From Methyloprofundus sp. (GTDB taxonomy: Bacteria > Pseudomonadota > Gammaproteobacteria > Methylococcales > Methylomonadaceae), in assembly GCA_030619185.1 (NCBI GenBank), contig JAUXBW010000102.1, positions 1-8,073 of the forward strand: a stretch of 8,073 nt of DNA, given 5' to 3'. The translations under genes were made by a program, and so were the position numbers. Shown piece after piece: positions 871-8,073 of the stretch. Position 1 is the stretch's first letter, and every line of letters begins with the position of its first letter. The notes beneath the pieces are model-generated. The model was not told the origin of the DNA. It searched no databases and saw nothing but the letters and a program-made list of their open reading frames with translations.

Positions 871-1758
871 ATGATAGCTTTTAACTTTAATATCTTTTTT
901 CCTTGCGAGCCATCATTACAGGATAATGACTACAATCCTGTATTAGAAACAGTTCGGGTATTACCAGCGGGGGAAGATATACGCCAGAGCCAATTAGAGT
1001 TTAGCTCTGGCTGGCAGGATATGTCGGGGCGTAAAGCCAGATATCGGGCGAAAAATGAGTTTTCATTATCTACCGGGACTGGCTGTCTATGGGCATTGGA
1101 TATAGAAGATGTTGTGATGCTATATTGGTCTATCGACAGTCATGTTCTTCAGTATCACCCAAAAGCACAGTTTACCCCGGAGCGTTTACGGTTTTGGGTA
1201 TGTCATACTGTGTTGCCGTTAAAATTTGCCCTGGAAAAGCGTTATGAAATGTTACATGTCGGGGCTGTTGAAGTGGCAGGGCGGCCCATTTTCTTTGCGG
1301 CTGAATCATTCGGTGGAAAATCAACCCTGACAGACTATTTTATTCAGCAGGGCCACGCACTGTATTCCGATGACTCATTGGCAATCTTTCAGCGGGAGGG
1401 AGTTTTTTTTGCAGTCGCCTCATACCCTTTTCATCGCCCGTATCGAGAGCCAGAAGTGCTAGGCTATGCGGTGGATAATATTGCACAGCAACCTAAGCCG
1501 CTTTATGCTGGTTATGTACTGGAAAAGGCTGCGGCGAATGCGATGATCACTATTGACCAGCTGCAAGGCGTGGAAAAGTTCAAAGCCTTTCACTTTAGTG
1601 GGTTTATTGATTTGAATTTCTTCAAAGCGCAACACTTTTTATTACGTAGCGCATTGGCACAAGCTATTCCCGTTTATAAAGTTACGCTGCCTTGGGAGCT
1701 AGCACGTTTGCCGGAGATGTATCATAAAATAGTGAAGCATATCACAAATTCCAGTTAA
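871..1758 (+). CDS. HprK-like P-loop kinase, probable RiPP-type system
   Basis: A 295-residue soluble protein resembling the HPr kinase-related families found beside PqqD-like proteins. The C-terminal half carries the kinase core: HVGAVEVAGRPIFFAAES (129-146), the phosphate loop AESFGGKST (144-152) with K150 and S151, and YSDDSLAIF (165-173) with D167/D168 as the likely metal-binding acidic pair. The N-terminal half (1-120) is unassigned and presumably a substrate-binding region. Two glycines of the HprK loop GxSGxGKS are replaced (A144 and F147). HprK homologues such as PadeK and ThcoK phosphorylate lasso precursor peptides, which suggests a peptide substrate here; the actual substrate is unknown. 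The start ATG has no Shine-Dalgarno sequence and follows a tandem CACCCCA repeat, so initiation is unusual or the true start differs. A T8 run (1403-1410) lies in codons 178-180. No PTS HPr gene is nearby. Confidence 0.75.
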   Translation: MIAFNFNIFFPCEPSLQDNDYNPVLETVRVLPAGEDIRQSQLEFSSGWQDMSGRKARYRAKNEFSLSTGTGCLWALDIEDVVMLYWSIDSHVLQYHPKAQFTPERLRFWVCHTVLPLKFALEKRYEMLHVGAVEVAGRPIFFAAESFGGKSTLTDYFIQQGHALYSDDSLAIFQREGVFFAVASYPFHRPYREPEVLGYAVDNIAQQPKPLYAGYVLEKAAANAMITIDQLQGVEKFKAFHFSGFIDLNFFKAQHFLLRSALAQAIPVYKVTLPWELARLPEMYHKIVKHITNSS

Positions 1759-1944: not shown

Positions 1945-2163
1945 GTGAATAAAAGACCTGAAGATTCAGGACAAACGGATGTGTCTGCTACGCGTCGCAG
2001 TTTCATAAAAAAGGCGGTATATACGACACCGACACTATTCGTCTTAGGTGGTCTGGTAAAAAGTAACGTTGCTAAAGCTGACTTTGGTTTGCCGCCAAGT
2101 TTGTGTGCGCCGACTGATTGTGCTGCTTCAGCGGTTGCGAATAGACGTCAGCGTCGAAAATAA
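1945..2163 (+). CDS. 72-residue Tat-signal-like peptide, candidate RiPP precursor
   Basis: A short protein beginning at GTG behind a strong ribosome-binding site. A polar N-terminus is followed by TRRSFIKK (16-23), a good twin-arginine motif, a hydrophobic stretch to about residue 38, and AKA (43-45), a plausible signal-peptidase site. Cleavage there would leave 27 residues starting DFGLPPS, with two cysteines (C54, C59) and a basic tail ending RRQRRK. Overlapping the hydrophobic part is Y26-x-x-P29-x-L31-x-x-x-G35, the lasso-leader motif recognised by PqqD-like B1 proteins; such a protein is encoded at 5142-5459. FGLPP recurs at the C-terminus of the third operon gene. It could be a modified peptide precursor, a small Tat-exported protein, or both. 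Lasso cores normally follow a Thr at -2 and start with Gly, which is not seen, so a lasso fold is not supported. The next gene starts 15 bp downstream. Confidence 0.75.
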   Translation: MNKRPEDSGQTDVSATRRSFIKKAVYTTPTLFVLGGLVKSNVAKADFGLPPSLCAPTDCAASAVANRRQRRK

Positions 2164-2178
2164 ATAGAGGACAATAAA

Positions 2179-4176
2179 ATGCAACGACATGTTAAACAAT
2201 GGATAACAACGATAGCGACTCTCTTAGTCTTAAGTAGTACCGGGATTGTTCAGGCTGCTCCGGTTATTGTCGAACAAATATTACCCAACAATGGAGGTCA
2301 TTCGGTTGTCATTGATGGCGAATGGGGTTTTGTTGGTTCCGGGGAGGGTACCGGTCAAGTTTTCTGTCAGGTCAAGGTTTATAAATATGACTATTTCACT
2401 CATAAATGGGGTAATGGTGGCTTAGGTGTGGGCAATACTGCTATTACGGGAGTCATTCTTGAGGATGAGCCCTATACGCAATTACGTAATACTGGATCAT
2501 GCAATACAGCCCGATTTGGTGGTTTTGGTAACTCTGTTTCCACCTCAAATGGTCTGTTAGCTGTTGGTGCACACCTTGCCAAAGATGGTGGCAGTATCCG
2601 GGGGGGGGAAATATTTTTCTATCAATTTGATCCTGCTCAAATAGCCAATGGAAAGGGGGGGTGGGTGCAAGATACTGCCGTTGGTTTCGCTGTAAACATG
2701 AATGGCAGTAGTGATATTCAACAAGATTCTGGTTTTGGATCGTCGGTATCCGTGCGTTATGACCCTGTAACAAATACAGCCGTTGTATTATCTGGAGCGC
2801 CAAGATATGATGACTCTGGAAAAACTGATGCTGGGAAGGTGTATCACTATAAATGGGATGGTAATGCGACTCCAAACACGATTACTTTCCAGAATTCTCA
2901 TGCGGGTGATACTGCAGGCGATGAGTTTGGCACAGCAGTCACCTCAAATGGACAATCAATATTGATCGGTGCCCCATTCTTTGATACCCCGGGTTCGACT
3001 TTCAGCAATGACGGCGCGGTTTTTTTGTACGATGATACTTTCACCTACCAGGCCCAGTTTGATGCTAATACCACTGGCATTACTGCTGGGAACAATTATA
3101 ACCTGGGAGTCTCCGTTTCACTTAGCCCAGGGGCAGAGAGTGTAATGTTGCTTGGAAGTTCGGGAGGGTATGGCAGCGGTGCGTACCAATTTAAGTTCAA
3201 TGGTACAAGCTATGATTATCTGCGTTCCCATGTAAATACTAATTCTGGTGATGTATCCCAGAGTGGTACTACGGCAGGCTTCGGCTATAGAAGCAGGTCC
3301 GTGCAACTCTATTATGATAACCAGGATAGTACAGGGCTGGAAAACTGGAGGTACGATAAGTTCGAGGCTGATTATGGCCGTGATATCAGCGTTAGCGGCA
3401 CTACTCGTGTTATGGTTAATGGTAATAGCGCTAATCAGGCCTATGCTTATTATACTGCTTGTGGTCATGTCGGGACGTTAAAGGCCAACGAATGGACTAT
3501 GATTGGTATGCCATGTCTTGTGAAAACAGTTGCGACAGGCACCCCTGCCACAATCGGTGAAATATTCACCGATTTAGGTACTTATGGTACTAACTCTGAC
3601 TGGGTGATGTATAAGCAAAATGGCATTGATTATGAAGGGCATCAGAATGCTTATGTCTTACTTAATGAACAAGATGTTATGGTTCAAGGTCAGGGCTACT
3701 GGATTATTTCCGGGACTGATAAAAAGTGGCAAGTTCCGAATACTTTGATAGCCCTTGGAACCCCAGTATTTGCTGACCCTACACCAGGTTTTAGTGGTAG
3801 AGAAAATGTTGCCGCTGTGCATGTACACGATCTTAATGCAATGCTGACTGGATTAGTGATACCGACAGCTGATATTCGAGTGATGCTTGCCAATCCATTT
3901 CCAAGTGCTATAGACTGGAGTTTAACTATACTTCAGGGTAATGTTTCTGATTTCCATCTGATTGATGGTAGTGCAGATGGTTTTTTTGAAGATTCTCCAC
4001 CGCGTCCGATTGCTTATGTTTACTCGGCGGGAGGGTATCAAGCTATTACAGCAGGTACGCCAGGAACACCTAGGAAAATAGAGTCGGCAGAAGGTTTTTA
4101 TGTCCGCTTTAGTGGTTTTTTTCATGCAGCCATGGTTGGTGATTCATTCTCACTTCTACTCGCAGAGCTTAAATAA
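2179..4176 (+). CDS. Secreted FG-GAP beta-propeller protein with C-terminal GYW domain
   Basis: A 665-residue exported protein. Residues 1-26 form a Sec signal peptide ending VQA before APV. Residues about 40-428 hold some six propeller-blade repeats of FG-GAP type; the clearest are FGNSVSTSNGLLAVGAH (116-132), FGSSVSVRYDPVTNTAVVLSGAP (186-208, stated as its FGSSVSV and VLSGAP ends) and FGTAVTSNGQSILIGAP (250-266). Residues about 430-665 form another domain with EWTMIGMPC (438-446), GQGYWIISG (504-512) and a later EGFYVRFSG (638-646), which reads as two related beta modules. No C-terminal anchor is visible, so it is probably periplasmic, surface-bound or secreted. FG-GAP domains serve adhesion or ligand binding in other proteins; the ligand here is unknown. 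AGAGGA 7 nt before the ATG gives strong translation. G9 (2600-2608) and G7 (2655-2661) tracts lie in codons 141-161. The next gene follows after 14 bp. Confidence 0.8.
   Translation: MQRHVKQWITTIATLLVLSSTGIVQAAPVIVEQILPNNGGHSVVIDGEWGFVGSGEGTGQVFCQVKVYKYDYFTHKWGNGGLGVGNTAITGVILEDEPYTQLRNTGSCNTARFGGFGNSVSTSNGLLAVGAHLAKDGGSIRGGEIFFYQFDPAQIANGKGGWVQDTAVGFAVNMNGSSDIQQDSGFGSSVSVRYDPVTNTAVVLSGAPRYDDSGKTDAGKVYHYKWDGNATPNTITFQNSHAGDTAGDEFGTAVTSNGQSILIGAPFFDTPGSTFSNDGAVFLYDDTFTYQAQFDANTTGITAGNNYNLGVSVSLSPGAESVMLLGSSGGYGSGAYQFKFNGTSYDYLRSHVNTNSGDVSQSGTTAGFGYRSRSVQLYYDNQDSTGLENWRYDKFEADYGRDISVSGTTRVMVNGNSANQAYAYYTACGHVGTLKANEWTMIGMPCLVKTVATGTPATIGEIFTDLGTYGTNSDWVMYKQNGIDYEGHQNAYVLLNEQDVMVQGQGYWIISGTDKKWQVPNTLIALGTPVFADPTPGFSGRENVAAVHVHDLNAMLTGLVIPTADIRVMLANPFPSAIDWSLTILQGNVSDFHLIDGSADGFFEDSPPRPIAYVYSAGGYQAITAGTPGTPRKIESAEGFYVRFSGFFHAAMVGDSFSLLLAELK
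2600..2661 (+). repeat. Two poly-G tracts (G9 and G7) inside the propeller gene
   Basis: G9 occupies 2600-2608 (Arg141-Gly-Gly-Glu) and G7 occupies 2655-2661 (Lys159-Gly-Gly-Trp), followed by T and three more Gs. As written, the frame is open. Deletion of one G from G9 brings in TAG at 2642-2644; insertion of one G brings in TGA at 2628-2630. Tracts like these mediate slipped-strand phase variation in surface genes of several Gram-negative bacteria. Confidence 0.6.
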
Positions 4177-4190
4177 GGGGGATATAAAAA

Positions 4191-4943
4191 ATGACAAACT
4201 TTGATAAAAGAATGATGCTTTCGCTGGCCGCCATTATGGCTCTAAGTAGTTTTAGCAATATCGCAGTGAGCAAGGGAAAGCCAGAGCCTGGAAATCAAAA
4301 GCCAAATAAGCAATGGTTTTTAAGAACCAAGGTCTCTGTTGATGATAATGACATAACTTATAAAGGTATTAATGAGGCAGTATTAGGTCAATTAACTGAA
4401 TGTAAACAAACCTGTCCTCAACATATCATTAAACCATTTAACTCTCTAGCAAGCAGCCATAATGTTAAAGCTGCTGTGGTCTTTATACTTGATGGCAGTA
4501 TAGAATCTTTTGCTGATTACCATGGTTTTAAACAAAGTGATATCTGGGAGTTGACTGTTTTGGCCGCTAAAGGTGGCGATGTTACTTTAAGCTGGGATGG
4601 TGCTGCTTTGACATCCACTAAAGAAAAAGATCGTGCTCCCCTTTATAAGGAAACTCCATTGCGCAAGGATGACTGGAAAGGTCTAGATCTTAGTGTAATC
4701 GATTTGAAAACACTGGAAGTTATTCCAATGGAGATATTTGAAGGCCATTATAATAGCTATACATTTACCATGGATACAGATGAAACTGCCCGCCTATTCC
4801 GCATTGTTAAAGGCCCTATTAATGCCAGTCAATTTGACCCTGCCAGTGGCGCACTGCAATATATCAAAGAACACCAGCCTCATGTTTTGCGTCAGCGTCG
4901 CAGTGTAAAACAGGTGGGTAAGTTTGGTCTACCGCCGAATTAA
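4191..4943 (+). CDS. Secreted protein of unknown family ending in FGLPPN
   Basis: A 250-residue protein whose family I do not recognise. An N-terminal signal peptide is visible: the basic stretch DKRM, a hydrophobic core LSLAAIMALSS (10-20) and a likely cleavage near residues 25-28. The mature protein begins with a Lys/Pro/Gly-rich linker, has a close cysteine pair (C71, C75, CKQTC), and then a segment rich in predicted strands, including DVTLSWDG (130-137) and YNSYTFTMDTDETARLFRIV (187-206), which suggests a beta-sandwich. The C-terminus, LRQRRSVKQVGKFGLPPN (233-250), carries RQRR and FGLPP, both also present in the 72-residue first protein of the operon. Cleavage after RQRR would release a 13-residue peptide, which is speculation. 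GGGGGA lies 8 nt before the ATG and 14 bp separate it from the propeller gene, so the three are co-transcribed. The terminator at 4966-4995 follows. Confidence 0.7.
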   Translation: MTNFDKRMMLSLAAIMALSSFSNIAVSKGKPEPGNQKPNKQWFLRTKVSVDDNDITYKGINEAVLGQLTECKQTCPQHIIKPFNSLASSHNVKAAVVFILDGSIESFADYHGFKQSDIWELTVLAAKGGDVTLSWDGAALTSTKEKDRAPLYKETPLRKDDWKGLDLSVIDLKTLEVIPMEIFEGHYNSYTFTMDTDETARLFRIVKGPINASQFDPASGALQYIKEHQPHVLRQRRSVKQVGKFGLPPN

Positions 4944-5138: not shown

Positions 5139-5161
5139 GTACTAGAGTGCTGAACTAGTAC
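5139..5161 (-). repeat. Inverted repeat over the stop codon of the PqqD-like gene
   Basis: GTACTAG (5139-5145) and CTAGTAC (5155-5161) are perfect 7-bp arms around a 9-nt loop, and the gene's stop codon lies in the left arm. No T-run follows on the minus strand within 30 nt, so it is not a complete intrinsic terminator; it may protect the mRNA 3' end. Confidence 0.4.
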
Positions 5162-5459
5162 GGGAGTGGGCGTTATCGTTTATTTCAACAGTAATTAACC
5201 CAGCATCCAGCAACTTATCCAAAAGTACTTGTAAATCATGTTCCAGTTGCGTTGCATCAACATCGTATTCCTCTAGCAAAATATTGTATACTTTTTGTAG
5301 TTCATTATGCTCTTGCAATAACTGCCAGATTCGCGTACCTACTTCATCCAGGCCAAAGTAATTTTCACTTTGCAAATCAAGTAATACTGTTTCTCCGTCA
5401 ACCTCTTGAGTAAACACTTCGCTGGAAATTGATATGTTGCTGGATAATGGAGTTGGCAT
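5142..5459 (-). CDS. PqqD-like RiPP recognition element (RRE) protein
   Basis: A 105-residue soluble protein of the PqqD / lasso B1 family. The diagnostic stretch VLLDLQSENYFGLDEVGTRI (25-44) continues into WQLL: a beta hairpin, the YFGLDEVG turn, then the first helix. Helices follow at about 52-66 and 69-87, giving the winged-helix fold that binds leader peptides along its third strand and last helix. Length is normal for a stand-alone member; about 15 polar residues at each end look disordered. Such proteins bind precursor leaders and present them to modifying enzymes. Candidate partners here are the HprK-like kinase and the 72-residue peptide with its YxxPxL motif. The gene is transcribed against that operon and meets it at the shared terminator. 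The RBS is weak (TAAAG a few bases before the ATG). Family membership is secure; the partner is inferred. Confidence 0.85.
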   Translation of the reverse strand: MPTPLSSNISISSEVFTQEVDGETVLLDLQSENYFGLDEVGTRIWQLLQEHNELQKVYNILLEEYDVDATQLEHDLQVLLDKLLDAGLITVEINDNAHSRTSSAL

Positions 5460-5697: not shown

Positions 5698-7350
5698 TTG
5701 CACATGAAATTTTCTGAATTATTACTCTTTTTTATCCCGCACCGACGCGTATTGTTTGCAATACTTATCTTATTACTTATGGGTAGCCTGCTTTCTCTTG
5801 TTAATCCGTGGCTTGCAGGGCAGTTGACCAAGTCAATGCTGGGGAGTGAAAGCTATTTTCCATCTATTCAATGGATGCTACTCGCCTGGCTAGCTTTGAT
5901 TAGCCTGAAAAGTATACTGGCTTTTGCGACGCAGTACCTGATTGGCAGCACGGGAGAATCAATCACTGCCAGTTTACGCACGCGCTTGTATGATCACCTG
6001 CAGATGCTGCCCATGACATACTATCATACGCAACGCCCGGGTGATGTATTGACTTTGTTAAGTAACGATGCTGAAGCAATTAGTACCTTTGTTTCTGGCG
6101 CTTTAGTGCAGTTATTACCTTTGCTACTCACCTTTCTGGGAGCATTCGTGATGATGGCTTTGATTGATCCATCCATTGCCTTGCTGGCGGTTGTTTTGCT
6201 GCCTGTTTATTATGTCGCGATGAAATTGATTGGTCGGCGTATTCGTCCTTTGACCAGGGAATGGATTGATTCTTATTCTGATATGGTTTCCTTTATCGAA
6301 GAGAATCTAGGCTTACTGCCAGCCATTAAGGTTTTTATTCGTGAGCCCCTGGAAGCGGAACGATTTGATAAAAAAAACACACGCTTATTGGCGATTTCCA
6401 AACGGCAATTATTTATCCAGTCGATCTTGTCCCCGGCGATTAGCTTTCTAGCGGGGATAGGCATGTTGTTATTGCTGTGGCTGGCGAGTGTGCAGTTGGA
6501 AAATGGACAATTGACTTCAGCTGATTTGGTGAGCCTGTTACTGTATGCGATGTTATTATCTCAGCCTATAGGCAGTTTGGCGAATGTCTATGGGCAAATC
6601 CAGCGTACGCGCGGAGCAGCAGAAAGAATACTGGCATTTTTTTCGGTACAGCCAGAACCCAAAGGTGAGGGTAAGCCTGAGCTAGCATCAGTTAACGGAT
6701 GTATTTGCTTTGAAAATGTTTATTTTGCTTATCCTGGGCGGCCCGATATTTTACAGGGGCTTGATCTTAATATTCAGCCGGGGGAGACGGTTGCGATTAT
6801 AGGTGAAAATGGGGCCGGAAAAAGTACGCTGGTGCACTTGTTAATGCGTTTGATTGATCTTAAAGGTGGGCGAATTCTAATTGATGATACGGATATAAGT
6901 GATGTTTCTCTGGCAAGTTTGCGCGCTCAAATAGGGCTGGTTGCGCAACATACCTTGCTGTTAAACGGTACCGTCAGGGAGAACATTGCCTATGGGCGTT
7001 CCCTTTCCAGTCAGCAAGAAATTGAGCAAGCAGCACGGGCAGCGCATGCACATGACTTTATCTCTGAACTACCTGAAGTTTATGATACCTTGATTGGCGA
7101 TCAGGGGCTTAGATTGTCTGGTGGACAACGCCAGCGCATTGCCTTGGCTAGGACTTTGCTGAAAGACCCTCCCATTATAGTGCTTGATGAGGCAACGTCC
7201 ATGTTTGATCCAGGAGGTGAGCAGAGTTTTATTGAGGAATGTCATCATCTACTGACACAAAGAACGGTGATACTGATAACCCACAGGCCTGCTAGTTTAG
7301 CTCTGGCTGATCGTATCGTTACACTAAAGAAGGGAGTGATTGTTGCGTAA
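5698..7350 (+). CDS. MsbA/LmrA-type ABC exporter, fused membrane and ATPase domains
   Basis: A 550-residue half-transporter that would work as a homodimer in the inner membrane. The membrane domain (about 15-300) has six hydrophobic segments, clearest near 18-38, 57-80, 134-155, 158-176, 243-263 and 275-292. The ATPase domain (about 335-550) is complete: Walker A GENGAGKST (369-377), Q-loop Q417, signature LSGGQRQR (473-480), Walker B IIVLDE with catalytic E498, and switch histidine H529. No N-terminal C39 peptidase domain is present, so it would not itself trim a double-glycine leader. Lasso and other RiPP loci use such exporters (type D), and lipid or glycan loci use MsbA-like ones; the neighbourhood permits both, and motifs cannot settle the substrate. 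The preferred start is TTG 5698, with ATG 5704 as alternative. An 87-bp gap separates it from the phosphatase gene. Confidence 0.9.
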   Translation: MHMKFSELLLFFIPHRRVLFAILILLLMGSLLSLVNPWLAGQLTKSMLGSESYFPSIQWMLLAWLALISLKSILAFATQYLIGSTGESITASLRTRLYDHLQMLPMTYYHTQRPGDVLTLLSNDAEAISTFVSGALVQLLPLLLTFLGAFVMMALIDPSIALLAVVLLPVYYVAMKLIGRRIRPLTREWIDSYSDMVSFIEENLGLLPAIKVFIREPLEAERFDKKNTRLLAISKRQLFIQSILSPAISFLAGIGMLLLLWLASVQLENGQLTSADLVSLLLYAMLLSQPIGSLANVYGQIQRTRGAAERILAFFSVQPEPKGEGKPELASVNGCICFENVYFAYPGRPDILQGLDLNIQPGETVAIIGENGAGKSTLVHLLMRLIDLKGGRILIDDTDISDVSLASLRAQIGLVAQHTLLLNGTVRENIAYGRSLSSQQEIEQAARAAHAHDFISELPEVYDTLIGDQGLRLSGGQRQRIALARTLLKDPPIIVLDEATSMFDPGGEQSFIEECHHLLTQRTVILITHRPASLALADRIVTLKKGVIVA

Positions 7351-7437: not shown

Positions 7438-7878
7438 TTGTTTGAAAATATACTCGTAGTTTGCATAGGTAATATTTGTCGTAGTCCAGTGGCGGAAGCG
7501 CTACTGAAAGCAGCTCTGATCAACAAAGGCAAAAAAAATTATAATATTAGTTCCGCAGGGATTGGTGCGTTGGTTGGCCATCAGCCAGACCAGTATGCTT
7601 GCGAATTGATGCTAGAAAGGGGGATAGATATATCAAGCTATCAGGCGACCCAAATAAACCAGCGGATGATTGTTAATTCTGATCTTATTCTGGTTATGGA
7701 AATGGCACATAAAGAGCTTATTGAACATAAGGAGCCCAGTGCGAAAGGGAAGGTGTTCAGGTTAGGTCAATGGGGAGGTTTTGATATAGCAGACCCTTAT
7801 CGTCAGGAACGTAAAGTATTTGAAAATGCCGTGATGTTAATTGAAAAAGGTGTTAATGACTGGGTGACTAAGCTTTAA
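7438..7878 (+). CDS. wzb: Low-molecular-weight protein tyrosine phosphatase, Wzb-like
   Basis: A 146-residue cytoplasmic phosphatase. The catalytic loop C9-IGNIC-R15-S16 follows the first strand at the N-terminus, as in all LMW-PTPs, and the general acid is D119 in the DPY motif (119-121). The N-terminus MFENILVVCIGNICRSPVAE closely resembles that of Wzb, which dephosphorylates the tyrosine kinase Wzc that controls capsule and colanic-acid polymerisation and export. The start is TTG 7438: it gives exactly the standard N-terminus, and an ATG would have to lie beyond the catalytic cysteine. Full length and intact. The partial Wza-like lipoprotein gene lies 115 bp downstream, supporting the polysaccharide role. 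The order wzb then wza differs from the enterobacterial wza-wzb-wzc. Arsenate reductases share this fold, but the context argues against that. Confidence 0.9.
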   Translation: MFENILVVCIGNICRSPVAEALLKAALINKGKKNYNISSAGIGALVGHQPDQYACELMLERGIDISSYQATQINQRMIVNSDLILVMEMAHKELIEHKEPSAKGKVFRLGQWGGFDIADPYRQERKVFENAVMLIEKGVNDWVTKL

Positions 7879-7993: not shown

Positions 7994-8073
7994 ATGATAC
8001 ACATTAAACGTCTGATTTTGATATTGGCTACGTATGGATTGGCAGCCTGTTCAGTTATTCCCGGTATGCATTG
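7994..8073 (+). CDS. wza: Wza-like polysaccharide export lipoprotein, 5' end only
   Basis: Only 26 codons lie inside the window; the gene continues past its right edge. The translation is a short basic start (HIKR), a hydrophobic core LILILATYG and a lipobox LAAC with C19 as the lipidated residue, followed by SVIPGMH. The post-cysteine C-[ST]-V-[IL]-P-G pattern matches the mature N-terminus of Wza (CTVLPG), the outer-membrane channel for group 1 capsule and colanic acid. The adjacent Wzb-like phosphatase supports this. No good Shine-Dalgarno sequence precedes the ATG. The fragment is short, so the identification rests on the lipobox, the following residues and the neighbour. Confidence 0.65.
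   Translation, partial: MIHIKRLILILATYGLAACSVIPGMH

Follow-up and report, generated by a model that had tools for sequence, protein, structure and literature searches.

T, a predicted 72-residue precursor peptide encoded at positions 1945..2163 (plus strand) of the DNA analyzed here, probably enters a linear RiPP pathway in which the PqqD-like protein D holds the leader, the HprK-like kinase K phosphorylates a core serine, the Tat system exports the product and signal peptidase frees the core. The window, by which we mean the whole stretch of 8,073 nucleotides from Methyloprofundus sp., is one entire contig of a 1.72-Mb assembly (genome G000) that is 66% complete. In the proposed order of events (binding, phosphorylation, export, cleavage) D would bind the T leader via [Y/W]xxPxL...G, K would phosphorylate the conserved core serine (probably Ser52 in the window), the modified peptide would leave via the Tat machinery and a cut by signal peptidase after AKA45 would free a short core. 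Because the predicted RRE-binding stretch is contained in the Tat signal, D would keep that signal masked while K worked, and export by Tat would act as the release from D. Sequence and comparison point to this scheme through conserved motifs that overlap, the co-occurrence of T, K and D and the key residues of K and D. Comparison also shows that the machinery and a tail are held in common with lasso precursors, with the cyclase and B2 absent from most T loci. An earlier note on this DNA had read T as a precursor or substrate that uses one leader twice, and both motif conservation and co-occurrence lend support to that reading.

Re-reading of the sequence returned the T ORF (GTG start, TAA stop) and every T residue named in the earlier note exactly, and the neighbors that it had listed are present: the HprK-like gene K (871..1758, plus strand, 5' of T), the PqqD-like gene D (5142..5459, minus strand) and a gene for an MsbA-like ABC transporter (5698..7350, plus strand), a neighbor of doubtful membership. 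D is a discrete RRE of the lasso B1 type (PF05402, 5.9e-18). Two frequent partners are encoded on the plus strand: B (2179..4176), a secreted FG-GAP protein having a C-terminal domain common to the B proteins of related loci, and F (4191..4943), a secreted protein of 250 residues that ends KFGLPPN (last six codons 4923-4940). T, B and F lie in direct succession, with gaps of 15 bases (T-B) and 14 bases (B-F). A promoter and terminator scan gave promoter-like sites at the level of shuffled sequence. A Wzb-like phosphatase gene (7438-7878) lies 3' of the transporter gene and is followed by a lipoprotein-like ORF, read by eye, of which the first 26 codons (7994-8073) precede the window end; these two could be the start of an exopolysaccharide export operon. 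An IS200/IS605-type transposase is encoded 5' of the kinase gene (206-640; NF033573, 148 bits).

The T leader contains the twin-arginine motif TRRSFIKK (residues 16-23, 1990..2013), followed by the predicted RRE-binding motif Y-x2-P-x-L-x3-G (residues 26-35, 2020..2049) and by AKA (residues 43-45, 2071..2079), a predicted signal peptidase I site. FGLPPS (2083..2100) is the predicted start of the core and Ser52 its predicted modified residue; all four features are on the plus strand. When 51 T relatives were aligned Arg17, Arg18, Phe20, Lys22, Tyr26, Pro29 and Gly35 were invariant, whereas Ala45, Gly48, Ser52 (at least 90% conserved) and Pro56 were nearly so. The window T is aberrant relative to these proteins in its 27-residue tail after AKA, which begins DFGLPPSLC and has two cysteines and a basic end, RRQRRK. 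The combined pattern RR-x-[FL]-x-[KR]..[YW]-x2-P-x-[LIVAMF]-x3-G had a single match in the window, read in all six frames, and 1000 base shuffles of the window produced one match in total.

A single-sequence search with T recovered only T itself, and in 60 other genomes such a search gave about twenty weak matches, none of them convincing (best E 0.025). Relatives of the kinase pointed to Campylobacterota contigs having the same gene order and small proteins of the T layout, two in locus L025 and one in L026, and these three together with the window T made up a four-row profile. The profile matched 117 proteins at E<=10, of which 109, including the window's own T, had E<1e-6. The T relatives, about 110 in number and mostly of about 60 residues, have the layout RRxFxKKA-Y-x2-P-x-L-x3-G, an AxA site and a short core. 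Conservation of the Tyr, Pro, Leu and Gly positions was what the earlier note had proposed to check in homologs, and Y-x2-P-x-[LIVAMF]-x3-G was kept in 110 of the 117 matches (the exceptions being the seven proteins P0111-P0117), a conservation that is partly selection because the candidates were drawn by five-residue words shared with the four seeds. In 109 of these 110 (three of which have RRR) the Tyr follows the first twin-arginine Arg at a distance of nine residues; P0104 lacks RR. Typical relatives end AKA-GFGKPPSGPTW, giving a core of about 12 residues, and PS was present in 100 of 110 cores as cut by a rough script, two rows having none. Among the copies of T found in genomes the core varies more than in the word-seeded profile set; their aromatic residue is Tyr except in L058 and L064, which have Trp.

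Co-occurrence was scored in 298 genomes of one Campylobacterota order, where T was present in 11, K in 17 and a PqqD-like gene in 57. All 11 T genomes have K and all 17 K genomes have a PqqD-like gene; the hypergeometric values of 3.6e-16 (T with K) and 6.9e-14 (K with the PqqD-like gene) assume independent genomes, which these are not. T and K lie on different contigs in G232, G282 and G485 and hence the co-occurrence is not only linkage. D was within the fetched stretch of seven of the ten T-K loci; L057, L058 and L064 lacked it, although their genomes have one. The suggestion that a PqqD-like gene goes with T was thereby upheld, and what we found was the opposite of a family that keeps the Tat motif alone with no linked PqqD-like gene. 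Side-by-side T-K-D triads are seen in L055, L060, L062 and L063, the last two of which lack B and F, and T stands without K on the stretch in L053, L054 and L059. F and B together accompany T in 7/10 T-K loci; the cyclase and B2 do so in 1/10. The 20 kinases of the set comprise 10 with T in the locus, 6 that adjoin a lasso cyclase gene and 4 with neither (L089, L093, L094 and L095, from G422, G232, G282 and G485). Among the six kinase-only genomes five have K beside the cyclase, and G422 has about 3 kb between the two.

The ABC exporter, which the earlier note had listed among the genes within 5 kb, proved not to be a conserved partner. A complete exporter was near T in one of the ten T-K loci (L061, as part of a lasso module), and L058 has an ATPase subunit only. 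As the exporter is not near T elsewhere, its candidacy as the exporter of T is weakened. Two loci had further arrangements. L063 encodes in a row on the minus strand (8188-11441) T, the kinase, the RRE, an NTP transferase and a second T with a repetitive Asn/Gly-rich tail, approximately the full core set of the linear polyphosphorylated peptides (LPPs) considered below but with Tat leaders. In L089 the kinase and RRE genes are head to head (7189-8465) with no precursor recognized there, and a second set of RRE, B2, ABC and NTP transferase genes follows at 11146-16846, with a cyclase gene a few kb away.

By its sequence T has the features of a Tat substrate, the twin-arginine motif, the hydrophobic stretch and the AxA site all being present. 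A TIGR01409 scan left the window T unreported at E<=1 and the copies of L025 and L061 passed the family cut-off. A core of twelve residues would be uncommon as a cargo of Tat, a system known for transporting folded proteins. According to the available text of PMC13381572, [Y/W]xxPx[L/V/I/F/A] is the motif held by lasso-type RREs, and the aromatic residue of T, Tyr or Trp, matches both residues given there for RRE-binding leaders. An alternative, which we consider unlikely, is that T is a plain small Tat-exported partner of B and F, that YxxPxLxxxG is a signal-peptide shape and that D and K come from a nearby lasso cluster. The contiguity of T, B and F in the window and their frequent company elsewhere fit this explanation, as do a lasso cyclase with its own kinase in G000 and the FGLPPN end of F, which is like the start of the T core. 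However, [YW]xxPx[LIVAMF] was present in none of 30 ordinary Tat signals, where the matching place had no Pro and two Tyr; this control was 30 of many TIGR01409 matches from 16 genomes of the T study and about a dozen were versions of one protein. Moreover, B and F are missing beside the T-K-D sets of L062 and L063, T-K-D without a cyclase is the rule and, in the copies seen, Tyr is replaced by Trp only. Among the papers listed from the open literature (subscription journals being largely outside the search) we found none describing a Tat signal that is also the leader of a RiPP. Judged from the sequences, one leader that would serve as RRE bait and Tat signal at once is likely what is new here.

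His129, Lys150, Asp167 and Asp168 of K are constant in all 42 kinases (42/42), and the available text of PMC9266682 gives the same quartet, His-Lys-Asp-Asp, for lasso kinases. In profile scans K fell below the curated family cut-offs. The predicted K model (pLDDT 91.6) gave HprK/P as the best structure match (TM 0.54 by target, 0.34 by query) with PEP carboxykinase next, and by this model K shares the nucleotide core with HprK/P and differs in the remainder. Kinase relatives of 72-73% identity are from Methyloprofundus sp., which makes the host a probable methanotroph, and Sulfurovum sp. CS9 also has a related kinase. Among 201 genomes of the host's family a close copy of K was found in G000 only, which suggests that K was acquired horizontally. 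D scored 61 bits against the lasso model NF033536 (cut-off 80), and its best match among solved structures was TbiB1 (2.4e-14, or 3.6e-22 as a profile); the D profile matched LppB (9x8z) more weakly, at 4.1e-9. All 12 D proteins compared, taken from Tat and lasso loci, have Asp at position 75. This residue aligns with Asp70 of LppB, which is hydrogen-bonded to the leader Tyr (PMC13381572, available text). As Asp75 is also present in the D proteins of lasso loci, it argues for an ability to hold Tyr rather than for a Tat-specific trait.

The B proteins of 11 loci match the window B over the C-terminal part and differ in their front parts, which have FG-GAP in the window and P-domain and laminin-G in L060. 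F proteins end FGLPPN (window), FGLPPR and FGYPPL (L025), FGLPPM (L026) or FGLPPSL (L059), other F proteins ending differently, and a membrane protein ends FGEPPE in L056 (9798-10217) and FGEPPL in L090 (14770-15153). The T cores, which start [G/D]FGxPPS, resemble these C-terminal FGxPP sequences. As a DNA pattern, one that overlooks TAG stops and tails extended by another residue, FGxPP was not enriched in 25 genomes (10 matches versus 20 for the reversed control); five of the ten matches end open ORFs and all five lie within T-related loci. The predicted F structure (pLDDT 52) was too poor for a fold search. L090 has F and B twice (11141-14553 and 15241-17000) and the profile gives its two F copies equal scores; the F duplication is perhaps recent.

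The FGxPP tails of F and of the membrane protein are one argument for a second, improbable alternative, in which T is RRE-guided but K marks F or B, or in which the phosphate is a handle to which an NTP transferase adds a sugar-phosphate, so that T ends as a glycophosphopeptide. Its other arguments are the distribution of NTP_transf_5 (PF14907, LppN-type), which we found in 9/11 T genomes, 5/6 other K genomes and 1/13 genomes lacking K, and PsmN, which adds a hexose to phosphoserine in a lasso pathway (PMC9266682, available text). However, the F tails of the window, L025 and L026 lack the Ser, and no NTP_transf_5 was found in G000 (66% complete), G225 or G485. The transferase, the distribution of which also counts in favor of the preferred reading, lies within the locus in three of the ten T-K loci (L058, L062 and L063). 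L062 and L063 sit among polysaccharide export and chain-length genes (capsule or exopolysaccharide), and LPP clusters lie in capsule loci (PMC13381572, available text).

The kinase-only genomes carry lasso clusters with precursors, as at L027, L087, L090 and L092. The L090 lasso precursor, ...MATK|GSTIGGTDSGGQSANVPSDPGGW (the bar marking the predicted cleavage), adjoins F and B, as does the L056 Tat precursor, ...RAKADQFGGPPSDPSGW. The two precursors have the tails PSDPSGW and PSDPGGW, the common form of which is PSDP[S/G]GW, and the L056 and L090 kinases are sisters (support 100/100 in a tree of 24 kinases); identities between the two loci are 67% for K, 67% for F, 45% for B and 58% for D. 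On the kinase tree, 9 of the 21 inner branches of which are weak, the T label changes 3 times versus 8.2 times in shuffles (0/500 as low). L061 (G378) combines a T-K pair with a lasso module and has one D. Contig C37 of G000 encodes a second HprK-like kinase, the gene of which overlaps that of a lasso cyclase (L033, 23-2415). This cyclase is of the asparagine-synthase type and runs to the contig end, and thus G000 holds part of a lasso cluster. No PF13471 match over the cut-off, as sought for B2, was found in G000 (66% complete), and both cyclase and B2 are absent from the window.

The earlier note had argued against a classical lasso peptide and we concur. Both the core GFGKPPSGPTW of typical relatives and that of the window, DFGLPPSLC after AKA, lack an Asp or Glu at positions 7-9 to provide a ring residue and a Thr at -2, and nine of the ten T-K loci have no cyclase or B2, so that T was rejected as a classical lasso precursor. 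That T is a lasso precursor for which cyclase and B2 are supplied from elsewhere in the genome would accord with lasso clusters whose kinases belong to this family, present in G000 (C37) and beside T in G378 (L061), and with the tail of the L090 lasso precursor, but in view of this core, these loci and a twin-arginine signal that would be lost on the B2-cleaved peptide, we regard it as highly improbable.

Returning to the phosphorylated linear peptide as the preferred reading of T, the observations can be joined in a broader picture that we put forward as tentative. T would represent a Tat-exported phospho-RiPP class of Gram-negative chemosynthetic bacteria in which the leader is read twice, RRE and Tat recognition being mutually exclusive such that only the finished peptide leaves. 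The core would be a fixed ligand rather than a variable antibiotic, and recurrence of its FGxPP head as a C-terminal tag on F and on the membrane protein would reflect one cell-surface receptor common to the peptide and the tagged proteins. Lasso and Tat-linear precursors would have replaced each other within the same neighborhood. If true, phospho-RiPP chemistry of the LPP kind is not confined to Bacillota but reaches Campylobacterota as well as a probable methanotroph and is tied to capsule loci on both sides, and there is a case of exchange of lasso and linear precursors in one gene neighborhood. The conserved T core with its fixed partners would also give a handle on the function of phosphorylated lasso peptides and LPPs.

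Several known systems invite comparison. The HPr-rel-A system (TIGR04352/TIGR04353) has an HprK-related kinase with a PqqD-family protein; this identity was rejected for K and D, which scored far below the cut-offs (20.3 bits versus 200 and 20.2 versus 35, respectively). MNIO RiPPs having Sec signal peptides, the bufferins among them, are like T in that the leader is an export signal, with the attendant problem of premature export, but they differ in the use of Sec rather than Tat, an MNIO rather than a kinase and a DUF2063-type partner rather than a PqqD-like RRE (PMC12452194, available text). In the same text masking of the export signal by a partner protein is proposed for MNIO RiPPs, and premature exit of signal-bearing precursors is an open question for the Sec-borne bufferins. 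As the T recognition motif lies inside the export signal, the masking idea becomes directly testable with one kinase and a pair of small proteins. Kinase-bearing lasso peptides (paeninodin, PadeK/ThcoK/SyanK) resemble T in the His-Lys-Asp-Asp kinase, the B1-type RRE and the YxxPxL...G leader and, in the case of L090, also in the tail and the neighboring genes. The differences are that the typical T lacks cyclase, B2, ring acceptor and Thr(-2), that its leader has a Tat signal and that its Ser is internal whereas theirs is C-terminal.

The closest known system, judged from the available text of PMC13381572, is that of the LPPs of Bacillota (lppA-K-B-S-D-N, 2026). Both systems have a precursor with a YxxP leader, a discrete lasso-type RRE, an HprK-like kinase, no cyclase, an NTP transferase (in most T genomes) and a Ser near the core start, and both occur in genomes that also hold lasso clusters and, in some loci, among capsule genes. 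They differ in that the T leader combines a Tat signal and an AxA site, whereas the LPPs as described in that text have no Tat leader. The T motif YxxPxLxxxG shares only YxxPx[LVI] with the LPP consensus YxxPxVLxHQxIxFETxxS, the T core has about 12 residues, with strong conservation among the relatives found, and T occurs in Campylobacterota and a probable methanotroph rather than in Bacillota. An RRE-linked SipW-like (SpI) peptidase was not seen among the window genes or in seven T-locus gene lists, read by eye with Pfam for part; given this and the differing leader consensus, we do not class T as an LPP proper. The earlier note had called the system undescribed. This stands for the Tat leader, for which we found no precedent among the papers listed, and does not for the logic of kinase, RRE and precursor, which the available text of PMC13381572 gives for LPPs. 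From the sequences, T probably behaves as LPP precursors do, except that its leader would also be a Tat signal.
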